Source: an uncultured Pseudomonadota bacterium (GTDB lineage: Bacteria > Pseudomonadota > Gammaproteobacteria > Steroidobacterales > Steroidobacteraceae). From it: a stretch of 64,000 nucleotides of DNA. The position numbers and the translations under genes were made by a program. Each line of letters opens with the position of its first letter. Position 1 is the stretch's first letter. The stretch is taken from contig CAIPVV010000010.1 in assembly GCA_903868595.1 (NCBI GenBank), positions 1 to 64,000 on the forward strand, written 5' to 3'. The notes beneath the pieces were generated by a model that saw only the letters and a program-made list of their open reading frames with translations, ran no database searches and was not told the DNA's origin. Shown piece after piece: positions 19,379 to 26,955 of this stretch.

Positions 19379-20449
19379 CTAGGCGGCGCTGCGCACGGCC
19401 TTGCGGCGTGCCTCCACGGCCCGCGCCAGGGTGTCCAGCACGCCGAGCGAGCTCTCCCAGTCGATGCAGCCGTCGGTCACGCTCTGGCCATAGGTCAGGG
19501 GCTGGCCGGCGATAAGGTCCTGCCGCCCGGCCTTGAGGTGGCTCTCCACCATGACCCCCAGGATGCGCTGTTCGCCGCTGGCGAGCTGCCCGGCAACGTC
19601 TGCGATCACCGCCGGCTGGTTCTGCGGCTTCTTGAGGCTGTTGCCATGGCTGACATCGATCATGAGGCGCGGCGAGAGGCCCGCGGCCACCAGCTGGCGG
19701 CTCACGGCCTCGACCGCATCGGCCCCGTAGTTGGGCTGTGTGCCGCCGCGCAGGATCAGGTGGCAGTCGGGGTTGCCGCTGGTGGAGGCGATGGCGCTGT
19801 GGCCGGCCTTGTTCACGGCCAGGAAATGGTGCGGCTGCGCAGCGGCCTGCACCGCGTCGAGCGCGATCTTCACATTGCCGTCCGTGCCGTTCTTGAAGCC
19901 CACGGGGCAGGAGAGTCCGGAGGCCATCTCGCGATGCACCTGGCTCTCGGTGGTGCGCGCGCCAATGGCGCCCCAGGCCACCAGGTCCGCGATGTACTGC
20001 GGCGTGATGATATCCAGGAATTCGCAGCCTGCCGGCAGGCCCAGCTCGTTCACGTCCAGCAGGAGCTGGCGGGCCAGGTGCAGGCCCTTGTTGATGTCGA
20101 AGCTGCCGTTCAGGTCCGGGTCGTTGATGAGTCCCTTCCAGCCGACCGTGGTGCGGGGCTTCTCGAAGTAGACCCGCATGATGATTTCTAGCGTATCGCC
20201 AAGGCGTTCGCGCTGGGCGTTCAACAGGTGTGCGTATTCCATCGCGGCCGCTGTGTCGTGGATCGAGCAGGGGCCGATCACGACGGCCAGGCGATCGTCC
20301 TGGCCGTGCAGGATGTGCTGCAGGCGCTGGCGCGCGTCCCGCACGGTGCGCGAGGCGCCCTCGCTGCGCAGGCAGTCCCGCAGCAGGCGCTCCGGCGTGA
20401 TCAGTTCCTGCATGTCGCGGATGCGCAGGTCATCGGTACGTAGGCTCAC
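19379..20449 (-). CDS. aroG: 3-deoxy-7-phosphoheptulonate (DAHP) synthase, class I
   Basis: First enzyme of the shikimate pathway; it condenses PEP with erythrose 4-phosphate. The 356-aa product has VIGPCSIHD (~residue 60), YFEKPRTTVGWKG, GARTTESQVHRE, KNGTDGN and the metal ligands in LMIDVSHGNS. I chose GTG 20449 because AAGGAG lies 7 bases upstream; the TTG at 20455 has no room for a ribosome site. Features are mixed between the E. coli AroG and AroF types, so the symbol is generic and the feedback inhibitor cannot be told. A terminator and a leader peptide rich in aromatic residues lie directly upstream, suggesting transcription attenuation. Confidence 0.96.
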   Translation of the reverse strand: MSLRTDDLRIRDMQELITPERLLRDCLRSEGASRTVRDARQRLQHILHGQDDRLAVVIGPCSIHDTAAAMEYAHLLNAQRERLGDTLEIIMRVYFEKPRTTVGWKGLINDPDLNGSFDINKGLHLARQLLLDVNELGLPAGCEFLDIITPQYIADLVAWGAIGARTTESQVHREMASGLSCPVGFKNGTDGNVKIALDAVQAAAQPHHFLAVNKAGHSAIASTSGNPDCHLILRGGTQPNYGADAVEAVSRQLVAAGLSPRLMIDVSHGNSLKKPQNQPAVIADVAGQLASGEQRILGVMVESHLKAGRQDLIAGQPLTYGQSVTDGCIDWESSLGVLDTLARAVEARRKAVRSAA

Positions 20450-20484
20450 GTTCAAACTCCTTGCAGTTGCCGTTTCCCGGCGGC

Positions 20485-20514
20485 AAAAAAAAACCGCCGG
20501 TGTCCGGCGGTTTT
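20485..20514 (-). terminator. Attenuator terminator in the aroG leader
   Basis: Read on the minus strand, AAAACCGCCGG (20514-20504) and CCGGCGGTTTT (20500-20490) form a perfect 11-bp stem with a 3-base loop, continued by five more T residues. It lies between the leader peptide and the aroG ribosome site, only ~35 bases before the aroG start, so it can only serve to stop transcription before aroG. Confidence 0.85.
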
Positions 20515-20521
20515 CTTGGGT

Positions 20522-20536
20522 GGTCTTGTGAAGACC
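20522..20536 (-). promoter_or_regulatory. Small hairpin between leader peptide and attenuator
   Basis: On the minus strand GGTCTT (20536-20531) and AAGACC (20527-20522) form a perfect 6-bp stem with a 3-base loop, just after the leader-peptide stop. It could be a pause or spacer hairpin of the attenuator; the role is inferred from position. Confidence 0.5.
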
Positions 20537-20542
20537 GCTTGT

Positions 20543-20623
20543 TCAGCGCGTACCCAGTCCTTCCGCCGTAGGTGTCGGAATAAAATAGGACCAGAAGTCA
20601 TAGCGGCTGAACGCGGTGTTCAT
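20543..20623 (-). CDS. Aromatic-amino-acid leader peptide of aroG
   Basis: A 26-codon frame (ATG 20623, TGA ending at 20543) directly upstream of the aroG attenuator. Residues 5-14 read FSRYDFWSYF, placing Phe at 5, 10 and 14, Tyr at 8 and 13 and Trp at 11: six aromatic residues in ten codons. The codons for Thr19-Ala20 contain CGGCGG (20568-20563), which can pair with CCGCCG in the 5' arm of the terminator and so act as the antiterminator. A ribosome stalled in the aromatic codons would leave this sequence free; one that reaches the stop would cover it. No good Shine-Dalgarno is visible before the ATG, which is the main weakness. Confidence 0.78.
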   Translation of the reverse strand: MNTAFSRYDFWSYFIPTPTAEGLGTR

Positions 20624-20864
20624 GAGCTTAGGAGTACCACGGGTCGGCCGCGGGCTGCAAATGGGCGTCCCGGGGGCGCTCCTGCAGGCGACCCGTGGAC
20701 GGCTTGGCCGGAGACGTCCGCCCACGTTGCTGCTTCGCGGGGGCGGGGGTGGATCGCAAATGCGAGTCATTCGGGATTGAATCCACCTGCGCAATCGGGG
20801 CGTATGCCCATTAACATTAGACTGTTGTTCATAAGCGTTTTGCATCGCCAAGGAGAGTCCCCAA

Positions 20865-21203
20865 ATGTCCAAGACCTTTCCCCGCCGCACGCTGATCAAG
20901 GCCGTCCTGCTGGGCGGCGCTGCCCTGCCGCTGGCGGCCCGCCTCGTGCCGGACGCCCAGGCCGCGGCGCAGCCGCTGGTCGACCCGAAGGATCCGGTTG
21001 CCGCCTCCCTGGGCTTCGGCGTCGACACGACCAAGATTGACGGTAAGGCCAACCCGACACACAAGGCGGAGCAGAAGTGCGCCAACTGCCTGCAGTTCCA
21101 GGGCAAGGCCGGTGACAAGCAGGGTGCCTGCAACCTCTTCCCGGGTAAGGATGTGGTGGCCACGGGCTGGTGCAAAGTCTGGGCCCAGAAGCCCGGCGCC
21201 TGA
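20865..21203 (+). CDS. High-potential iron-sulfur protein (HiPIP)
   Basis: Small periplasmic electron carrier with one 4Fe-4S cluster. The 112-aa precursor starts with a twin-arginine signal (PRRTLIKAVLLGG, cleavage near residue 35), expected for a protein exported folded with its cluster. The mature part has four cysteines in the HiPIP pattern: CANC, then GACNLFPG, then GWCKVW. AAGGAG-type ribosome site just upstream and an intrinsic terminator downstream make it a single-gene unit. HiPIPs carry electrons between the bc1 complex and oxidases or reaction centres; the partner here is unknown. Confidence 0.95.
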   Translation: MSKTFPRRTLIKAVLLGGAALPLAARLVPDAQAAAQPLVDPKDPVAASLGFGVDTTKIDGKANPTHKAEQKCANCLQFQGKAGDKQGACNLFPGKDVVATGWCKVWAQKPGA

Positions 21204-23652: not shown

Positions 23653-26600
23653 ATGTCTATTCACGTCGCACTTCGTCACGTCACCCACTACAAGTACGAC
23701 CGCCCGGTCACGCTTGGGCCGCAGCTCATTCGGTTGCGTCCGGCACCCCATTGCCGTACCCGCATCCTCTCCTATTCGCTGGATGTCGCGCCCGCCGGGC
23801 ACTTCCTGAACTGGCAGCAGGATCCGCAGGGCAACTACATGGCCCGCCTGGTGTTCCCGGAGAAGACGCGGGAGTTTCGCGTCGCCGTGGACCTGGTGGC
23901 GGAGATGTCGGTCCAGAACCCCTTCGACTTCTTCCTCGCGCCGCATGCGGAGACCTTCCCGTTCGCCTACAGCTCGGTGGAACGTCGCGAGCTCACGCCA
24001 TTCCTGATCAAGGCGCCGCCGACGCCGCTGCTGGCCGCCTACCTGGCCAAGATCCCGCGCGAGCCGATGCGCACCATCGACTTCATCGTCGCGATGAACC
24101 AGCGCGTCGCGGCCGACGTGAAGTACCTGATCCGCCTGGAGCCGGGCGTGCAGTCGCCGGAGACCACGCTGAAGCGGGCATCCGGCTCCTGCCGCGATTC
24201 GGCCGAGCTGCTGGTGACGCTGTTCCGGCACCTGGGGATGGCGGCGCGCTTTGTCTCCGGCTACCTGATTCAGCTCAAGGCCGACGTGAAGCCGCTGGAG
24301 GGTCCCGCAGGTCCGGTGGAGGATTTCACCGACCTGCATGCCTGGTGCGAGGTGTATCTGCCGGGTGCGGGCTGGATCGGCCTGGACGCGACCTCGGGCC
24401 TGCTCGCCGGCGAGGGCCATATTCCGCTGGCCTGCACGCCGGAGCCGTCGGCAGCCGCCCCCATCAGCGGCGGCGTCGACAAGGCCGAGGTCGAGTTCTC
24501 GCACGAAATGCAGGTCAGCCGCATCTGGGAGGCCCCGCGCGTCACCAAGCCCTACACCGAGGAGCAGTGGGAGCAGATCCTGGCCCTGGGCCACGAGGTC
24601 GATGGGCGCCTGACGGCCGATGACGTGCGCCTGACGATGGGCGGCGAGCCCACGTTCGTGGCCGTGGATGATCCGGACGGCGAGGAGTGGAATACGGCGG
24701 CGCTGGGACCCACCAAGCGCCTGCGTGCCGCGCAGCTCTACAACCGCCTGAAGGACCGCTATGCCCCGCAGGGCCTGGCGCACTTCGGCCAAGGCAAGTG
24801 GTACCCGGGCGAGCAGTTGCCGCGCTGGTCGCTCAACTGTTACTGGCGCAAGGACGGCGAGCCGATCTGGCGCGACAACGCGCTGTATGCGGATGAAGCG
24901 GTGGACCATGGGGTCACGCCGGCCGATGCCTCGCGGCTGCTGGCGGGCGTGGCGCTGCGGCTGGGCCTGGATACCCGTTACATCTTCCCCAGCTTCGAGG
25001 ACGTCTTCTACTACCTGTGGCGCGAGCGGCGTCTGCCGGCCAACGTGGATCCCTTCGATGCGAAGCTGGAGGATCCGATGGAACGCGAGCGCCTGCGCAA
25101 GGTCTTCAGCCAGGGGCTGGAGAAGGAAGTCGGCTTCTCGCTGCCCGTGGCGCGCGATGCGGGCAACGAGCGCTGGCAGACCGGTCCGTGGTTCCTGCGC
25201 ACCGAGCGCTGCTACCTGCTGCCCGGCGACTCGCCGATGGGCTATCGCATGCCGCTGGACTCCCAGCCCTGGGTGACCCAGAGCGACTATCCCTACCTGC
25301 ACCAGCCGGATCCGGCCGATCACTTCCCGCCGCTCGCGCGTCATGCCCAGCTGGTCTCCCAGCTGCGCCCGGTCGGCGCGGCGCCCAAGGCGCTGCCGGC
25401 CGCTGCGCTGCGTCGTCCGGCCAAGGGCGAGTCGGCCGCGGGCCTCACGCGCACCGCCCTGTGCGCCGAGCCGCGCAAGGGCGTGCTGTATGTCTTCATG
25501 CCCCCGCTGCAGAGCCTCGAGGCGTACCTGGAACTGGTTGCGGCGGTGGAAGTCAGCGCGCAGCAGCTGGGACTGAAGGTGGTGCTGGAAGGCTACGAGC
25601 CGCCCTCGGATCCGCGCCTGGCGAGCTTCCGCGTGACGCCGGACCCCGGTGTCATCGAGGTCAACATCCACCCGTCGGCCACCTGGAATGACCTGGTGGA
25701 CCGGACCGAGCACCTGTACGAGGCCGCGCACGAGTCGCTGCTCACCAGCGAGAAGTTCATGCTCGACGGGCGCCACACCGGCACCGGTGGCGGCAACCAC
25801 TTCGTGCTGGGCGGTGCCACCGTCAACGACTCGCCGTTCCTGCGCCGGCCCGACCTGCTCAAGAGCCTGCTGGGCTACTGGCACAACCATCCCTCGCTCT
25901 CCTACCTGTTCTCTGGCCTTTTCATCGGGCCTACCTCGCAGGCGCCGCGCGTGGATGAGGCGCGCAACGACTCGCTGTATGAGCTGGAGATCGCGTTCCG
26001 CGAGATCCAGGAGCACGGCGCCAACCCGCCGCCCTGGCTGGTGGACCGGGTGCTTCGCAACCTCCTGATCGACGTCACCGGCAACACGCATCGAGCCGAG
26101 TTCTGCGTCGACAAGTTGTTCTCGCCGGACGGCCCGACCGGGCGGCTTGGTCTGCTGGAGCTGCGGGCATTTGAGATGCCGCCGCATGCGCGCATGAGCC
26201 TGGCGCAGCAGTTGCTGCTGCGCTCGCTGGTGGCGCGCTTCTGGCACGAGCCTTACGAGCCGGCGCGCCTGGCGCGCTGGGGCACCGAGCTGCATGATCG
26301 CTTCATGCTGCCGTACTTCGTGAAGCAGGATTTCGGCGACGTGCTCAGCGAACAGCGCGACGCCGGCTTCGCGCTGGACGATGCGTGGTTTGCGCCGCAC
26401 TTTGAGTTCCGGTTCCCGCGCTACGGCGACTACGAGACGCGCGGCGTGGAGATGGAGATCCGCCATGCGCTGGAGCCCTGGCACGTGATGGGCGAGGCGG
26501 GCTCCGCCGCCGGCACCGTGCGCTACGTCGACTCCTCCGTCGAGCGGGTGCAGGTGAAGGTTGGCGGCCTTGCGCCGGACCGCTACGCGGTGGCCTGCAA

Positions 26601-26955
26601 CGGCCACGCCGTGCCGCTACGTCCGACCGGCAATGCCGGCGAGTACGTGGCCGGCGTGCGCTACCGCGCCTGGCAGCCGCCCAACGCGCTACACCCCACG
26701 ATCGGCGTACATTCCCCGTTGACCTTCGACCTGGTGGATACGTGGATGCAGCGCTCGCTCGGCGGGTGCAGGTACCACGTTGCCCATCCGGGCGGCCGTA
26801 ACTACGACACCTTCCCGGTGAATGCGTTCGAGGCCGAGAGCCGTCGGCTGGCGCGCTTCTTCCGTCTGGGCCATACCCAGGGCCGCGTCGCGGCGCCGCC
26901 GCAGGGCGTGAACGCCGACTTCCCGTTCACGCTCGACCTGCGTCGCGCGGACTGA
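23653..26955 (+). CDS. DUF2126 transglutaminase-like protein
   Basis: Large cytoplasmic protein of 1100 aa. The N-terminal ~270 residues are a bacterial transglutaminase-like domain: a beta-rich region ([18 protein letters not shown]), the Cys motif [18 protein letters not shown] (~residue 180), His in [12 protein letters not shown] and Asp in [10 protein letters not shown], so the Cys-His-Asp triad is intact. The rest (~residue 300 on) is DUF2126, with conserved stretches [33 protein letters not shown] and [20 protein letters not shown]. The latter two resemble an ATP-dependent carboxylate-amine ligase active site. First gene of a four-gene unit; the next starts 1 base after its stop. Predicted to make or break amide bonds; the substrate is unknown. 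Confidence 0.93.

Follow-up and report, generated by a model that had tools for sequence, protein, structure and literature searches.

Enteric bacteria regulate entry into the shikimate pathway by TyrR/TrpR. The protector/antiterminator/terminator logic that is proposed below for a DAHP synthase gene is shared with the attenuators of E. coli pheA (pheL) and trp (trpL), which, unlike the present element, respond to one amino acid, are led by a Shine-Dalgarno sequence and control terminal branches instead of the common first step (PMC11802643). For aroF of E. coli and Shewanella, attenuation sensing tyr-tRNA has been put forward (Camakaris, 1980, cited in PMC8632094 and PMC2659441); it is presented there as a hypothesis only, and it resembles the present family in that attenuation is proposed at a DAHP synthase gene. 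In the actinobacterium C. glutamicum, the aroR-aroF attenuator (Neshat et al., 2014) is reported to raise transcription when the ribosome stalls on aromatic codons (PMC11802643; PMC4046766). Its leader peptide, with Phe-Tyr-Phe, precedes one of the two DAHP synthase genes of that genome. The likeness is one of arrangement: aroR has a short F-Y-F motif, whereas leaders of the present family usually contain four or more aromatic codons, usually include Trp as well, and possess a GGCGG/CCGCC/GGCGG core.

Two further systems each share part of this arrangement. The Acholeplasma element uORFC-13-1, located upstream of aroF, is a computed uORF in which, likewise, one or more Phe codons and a terminator precede a DAHP synthase gene, but its 24 representatives all come from Acholeplasma or from environmental sequences, and it differs in possessing a ribosome site and in its structure (PMC8632094). 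The trpL leader of S. meliloti (rnTrpL/peTrpL) is documented as a leaderless mRNA that begins at its AUG and acts by transcription attenuation, although it senses Trp only and controls trpE (PMC10117765). No Rfam leader family matched at its gathering score in 20 aroG loci, none did so at E≤0.1 in 4 further loci, and a search of the window (the whole 64,000-nt stretch of DNA analyzed here) at E≤1 returned sub-threshold matches only. Full-text searches of open-access literature yielded no report of a proteobacterial aroG attenuator of this kind. Attenuation of this general kind is thus known, while a broad proteobacterial aroG family appears to be both undescribed and uncatalogued.

The leader reading frame upstream of aroG

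The aroG gene of the window (19379-20449, minus strand) encodes a type-I DAHP synthase (TIGR00034 aroFGH, 523.8 bits against a cut-off of 173.2; PF00793). Its start is most likely GTG 20449, 7 nt after the Shine-Dalgarno sequence AAGGAG that is read directly at 20457-20462 (minus strand), in preference to TTG 20455, which is also possible. The order on this strand is leader ORF, spacer, terminator and aroG. The leader ORF MNTAFSRYDFWSYFIPTPTAEGLGTR (20543-20623, minus strand) comprises 26 codons and a TGA stop on direct reading (ATG AAC ACC GCG TTC AGC CGC TAT GAC TTC TGG TCC TAT TTT ATT CCG ACA CCT ACG GCG GAA GGA CTG GGT ACG CGC TGA, 20623-20543), and equivalent ORFs are found in relatives. 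The original prediction of such a frame, with three Phe, two Tyr and one Trp at residues 5-14, proved exact, and these six aromatic residues (F5, Y8, F10, W11, Y13 and F14; codons 5-14 at 20582-20611, minus strand) are assigned as control codons from the family aromatic frequency and a frame test.

Such density is exceptional within the window, where only one of 561 ORFs (ATG start, 10-60 codons, both strands), the leader ORF itself with its terminator downstream, has at least six F/Y/W within 10 codons; no ORF of this density occurred in 40 Markov-randomized windows. The frame test on the family clusters put the aromatic share at 78% in the leader's own frame and at 22% and 19% in the two alternatives, and found no in-frame stops. 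Furthermore, 80% of the leader Phe codons are TTT, versus 13% in the aroG genes of the same loci (L002-L081), a bias that may delay decoding or hinder folding of this stretch.

The caveat attached to the original prediction, that the leader has no clear Shine-Dalgarno sequence, was borne out, and would be accounted for by a predicted leaderless start: only 7 nt separate the end of the predicted -10 element (TG-G-TACTCC, 20631-20636, minus strand) from the leader ATG, and transcription is therefore predicted to start at or beside this codon. The predicted -35 element TTGCAG (20655-20660, minus strand) lies across an 18-nt spacer; it aligns by eye with TTGCCA of a relative from the same genus (L084) and is weak in the window, as is the overall -10/-35 match of the window in a sigma-70-like promoter search. 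Across the family, the best -10 box falls 5-9 nt from the ATG in 50% of loci versus 8% of shuffles, and Shine-Dalgarno sequences are mostly without a match or limited to 3 nt. Placement near the ATG holds for most own-family loci and for most of those from alphaproteobacteria, Xanthomonadales and Bordetella, whereas Oxalobacteraceae and Burkholderia have their best -10 box about 25-41 nt upstream. Divergent from the leader is a gene for a high-potential iron-sulfur protein (HiPIP; 20865-21203, plus strand), and both promoters are accommodated within about 240 bp.

Predicted RNA structures of the leader transcript

The 11-bp terminator with its T-run that had been described ahead of the aroG ribosome site is present at 20485-20514 (minus strand), as AAAACCGCCGG-ACA-CCGGCGGTTTT at 20514-20490 with the T-run reaching 20485. 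This pairing of segments 3 and 4 is supported by direct reading, by a 59-nt fold z of -7.1 and by its maintenance in relatives, where 94% of cells are paired and compensatory changes are present. The complementarity originally noted between CGGCGG in codons 19-21 (20568-20563) and CCGCCG in the 5' arm of the terminator (20510-20505) is likewise exact, and the proposed antiterminator gains from the observations that its arms co-vary and that the pairing also extends to an inner arm, TGGGT (20556-20552) with ACCCA (20521-20517). Segment 2, the 5' arm of the antiterminator within the last codons of the ORF, accordingly spans 20552-20568, and segment 3, which serves as the 3' arm of the antiterminator and the 5' arm of the terminator, spans 20505-20521 (both minus strand).

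The antiterminator was assessed by duplex permutation, which tolerates shifting arm spacing and replaced a fixed-column pair count in which covariation was no better than in shuffles (113 of 500), partly because the inner arm shifts in position. The segment 2:3 duplexes of own arms average -20.2 kcal/mol versus -18.3 kcal/mol for swapped arms (0/20000 permutations), and the advantage of own arms persists within clades, both with the invariant core (p = 1e-4) and after its removal (p = 0.002); two negative-control pairings showed no excess pairing in the same test. The GGCGG core of segment 2 is invariant or nearly so among 43 non-redundant relatives. In one locus (L080) the antiterminator core carries a G-C to A-U change, while two loci (L013 and L055) have GGCAG facing CCGCC, which counts against the antiterminator.

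Segment 1, the protector (20602-20622, minus strand), occupies the beginning of the ORF, whose end is its pairing partner; the protector forms without a ribosome in the minimum free energy fold. Within clades, own arms pair better than shuffled arms, both for segments 1:2 (p = 0.011) and for segment 1 with the stop region (p <5e-5). The smaller 6-bp hairpin that had also been proposed (GGTCTT/CAC/AAGACC, apical loop, 20522-20536, minus strand) is present but unconserved: the spacer containing it has a z of -3.1 in the window and a mean z of 0.04 across the family, on which ground a conserved pause hairpin was rejected, and it is probably an incidental feature specific to the window sequence. 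For the complete leader at equilibrium, folding favors the terminator, and the switch must therefore be kinetic, acting during transcription.

Modeled effect of a stalled ribosome

The original prediction had suggested folding the leader with and without the region covered by a stalled ribosome. Folds were computed with the nucleotides under the ribosome masked and with segment 3 as the end of the transcript. When no ribosome is present, the modeled probability of the 2:3 pairing, P(2:3), is 0; a stall at codons 2-15, a range that takes in all six aromatic codons, raises it to 0.84-1.0, and one at codons 16-25 gives 0.14 or less. For codon 26 the smallest footprint yields 0.44, and larger footprints yield 0. 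With the ribosome on the stop codon P(2:3) is 0.73, 0.66 or 0, depending on the assumed footprint, a result that counts against the model.

The distribution of aromatic residues in the family leaders follows the same boundary. Among 43 leaders, 91-98% of residues are aromatic at a distance of 7-9 codons ahead of segment 2, a share that declines to 51% at 5-6 codons, 16% at 4 codons and 0% at 1-3 codons, and thus drops to zero at the place where P(2:3) collapses as the ribosome covers segment 2. Segment 2 was located partly by demanding an aromatic stretch upstream, which does not force this downstream boundary.

Conservation and distribution

Loci fetched by AroG protein similarity alone comprised 80 from named genomes and 20 from relatives of the window's genome. 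Counting only those with enough upstream sequence, the aromatic cluster and the terminator, whose joint conservation had been proposed as the decisive comparison, occur together in 83 of 87 loci with an AroG at least 60% identical and in none of 11 with an AroG less than 55% identical; the element is therefore not a product of chance. An aromatic leader combined with a CCGCC...GGCGG-T terminator characterizes nearly all of the close loci, as exemplified by MKFASPAFYFYFYGFLKPLAEEGTRAV (Bordetella), MSAKFYFYFFWYLRPLADREG (Burkholderia), MITVATSYFWYFSYDSSLAAGGSRSI (Bradyrhizobium) and MILTSTRYYFWFYGYPMPLAEVGARS (Dyella). Two loci with an AroG 62-63% identical (L165 and L169; leaders MSITSVYASRFYWYRCSQRMRVRA and MSTTSIYASRFYWYRCSQRMRVYA) have no match to the simple terminator pattern and represent a divergent variant.

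Of 398 genomes sampled from the phylum, 52, representing 30 of 213 genera, gave matches to a covariance model of the element at E≤1e-7. All strong matches that were fetched lie upstream of aroG with an F/Y/W leader, and together with aroG the element is found across the alpha-, beta- and gamma-proteobacteria. Five fetched matches lack aroG; all are weak, and one is a trp leader. This trp-like leader MTISMNIGNWWWARFARP (L167, G582:C68) is matched at an E of 9e-8, indicating that trp and aroG attenuators have a similar GGCGG-type terminator layout. Class-wide matches below about 40 bits were set aside, being mostly bare terminators: L109 is the terminator beside groEL, and no aroG follows L161, L162, L166 and L168. 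A plasmid search with a Bordetella leader gave no match.

Genomic context

In the genus of the window, aroG and its attenuator occur in two of nine genomes, while a type-II DAHP synthase is encoded in all nine, from which it follows that the attenuator here would control a second, accessory and patchily distributed type-I isozyme. A second PF00793 match in the window's genome is presumably KdsA. The patchy distribution of type-I aroG within the genus reflects gain or loss; here the gene lies beside groESL-dsbD. Among the genus members that were checked, the flank fetched around groESL contains no aroG, and groESL mostly adjoins dsbD, as in the window. Further along, at 23653-26955 (plus strand), lies the gene of a large protein in which transglutaminase-like and DUF2126 (putative amidoligase) domains are combined.

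Proposed mechanism and alternative explanations

Taken together, the anatomy of the locus, its conservation and linkage to aroG, the co-variation of the arms and the fit of the codon positions to the footprint model make it very probable that aroG is controlled by a ribosome-mediated transcription attenuator; we infer that the leader is translated, where its transcript starts, that starvation raises read-through and which amino acids are sensed. In the proposed mechanism, transcription would begin from or beside the leader AUG, and a ribosome loading on the leaderless mRNA would follow close behind RNA polymerase. With ample Phe-, Tyr- and Trp-tRNA, the ribosome would pass over segment 2 (codons 19-21) to the stop codon, leaving segment 3 free for segment 4, so that the terminator forms and transcription ends before aroG. 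Scarcity of any one of the three charged tRNAs would stall the ribosome at codons 5-14, just short of segment 2, where it would break the 1:2 protector and allow 2:3 to pair, with the result that no terminator forms and aroG is transcribed. If the leader were not translated, 1:2 would form, followed by the terminator.

The wider proposal stands at about even chances: that a single, predicted leaderless attenuator, conserved as one RNA family in alpha-, beta- and gamma-proteobacteria, acts on the committed step of the common pathway as an OR-sensor for Phe, Tyr and Trp, here in a genome that also encodes a type-II DAHP synthase. The original suggestion that several end products are sensed at once receives structural support, in that a stall at any of the six codons frees segment 2 in the model, but Trp is missing from 12 of the 43 non-redundant leaders, leaving Phe and Tyr, both near-universal, as the predicted core inputs. 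The same figures bear on a possible, if tentative, sub-case that is compatible with attenuation, in which one amino acid (e.g. Phe or Tyr) is sensed in practice and the other aromatic codons are neutral. C. glutamicum AroR, which reportedly responds under Phe limitation (PMC11802643), is in keeping with a single input, whereas the model needs a stall at only one of the six codons, whichever it is, and Phe, Tyr and Trp occur together in 30 of the 43 leaders.

Additional action in trans of the terminated leader RNA or of the peptide, as reported for S. meliloti rnTrpL/peTrpL, is suggested by the leaderless layout of trpL that is also predicted for the present leader, but the peptide sequence is poorly conserved and we regard such action as improbable. 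Another alternative is a nascent-peptide arrest element resembling TnaC, in which free aromatic amino acid would be sensed through the peptide sequence and not through tRNA charging. The C-terminal half of many leaders does look conserved (P-LAE-G-R-like), but this likeness tracks the nucleotides: GGCGG falls in phase 2 in 70 of 79 loci and in phase 1 or 0 in the other nine, giving other residues, and in L082, L013, L017 and L055 the GGCGG/GGCAG stretch is translated in a different frame. Since the nucleotides of segment 2 are kept there although the frame differs, the RNA is the conserved entity in these relatives. The aromatic residues, moreover, vary freely among F, Y and W and also in number, and peptide arrest is accordingly highly improbable. 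A further alternative dispenses with a translated sensor and supposes either an unstructured, U-rich leader followed by a constitutive terminator or an element resembling a riboswitch. It would suit the U-rich cluster codons and their preference for TTT over TTC, yet is scarcely credible in view of the strong frame dependence, the absence of in-frame stops, the recurrence of Trp TGG codons, the abruptness with which the cluster ends at the footprint boundary and the lack of an Rfam match.

Possible biological implications

Under the attenuation model, this family would guard entry into the shikimate pathway in Burkholderia, Bordetella, Bradyrhizobium, Mesorhizobium, Xanthomonadales and others. 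The element would constitute a ready three-input sensor whose Phe/Tyr/Trp logic, singly or jointly, is testable with one reporter. It would also provide a codon-level readout of the aromatic tRNA that limits growth, and may offer a handle on aromatic amino acid production.
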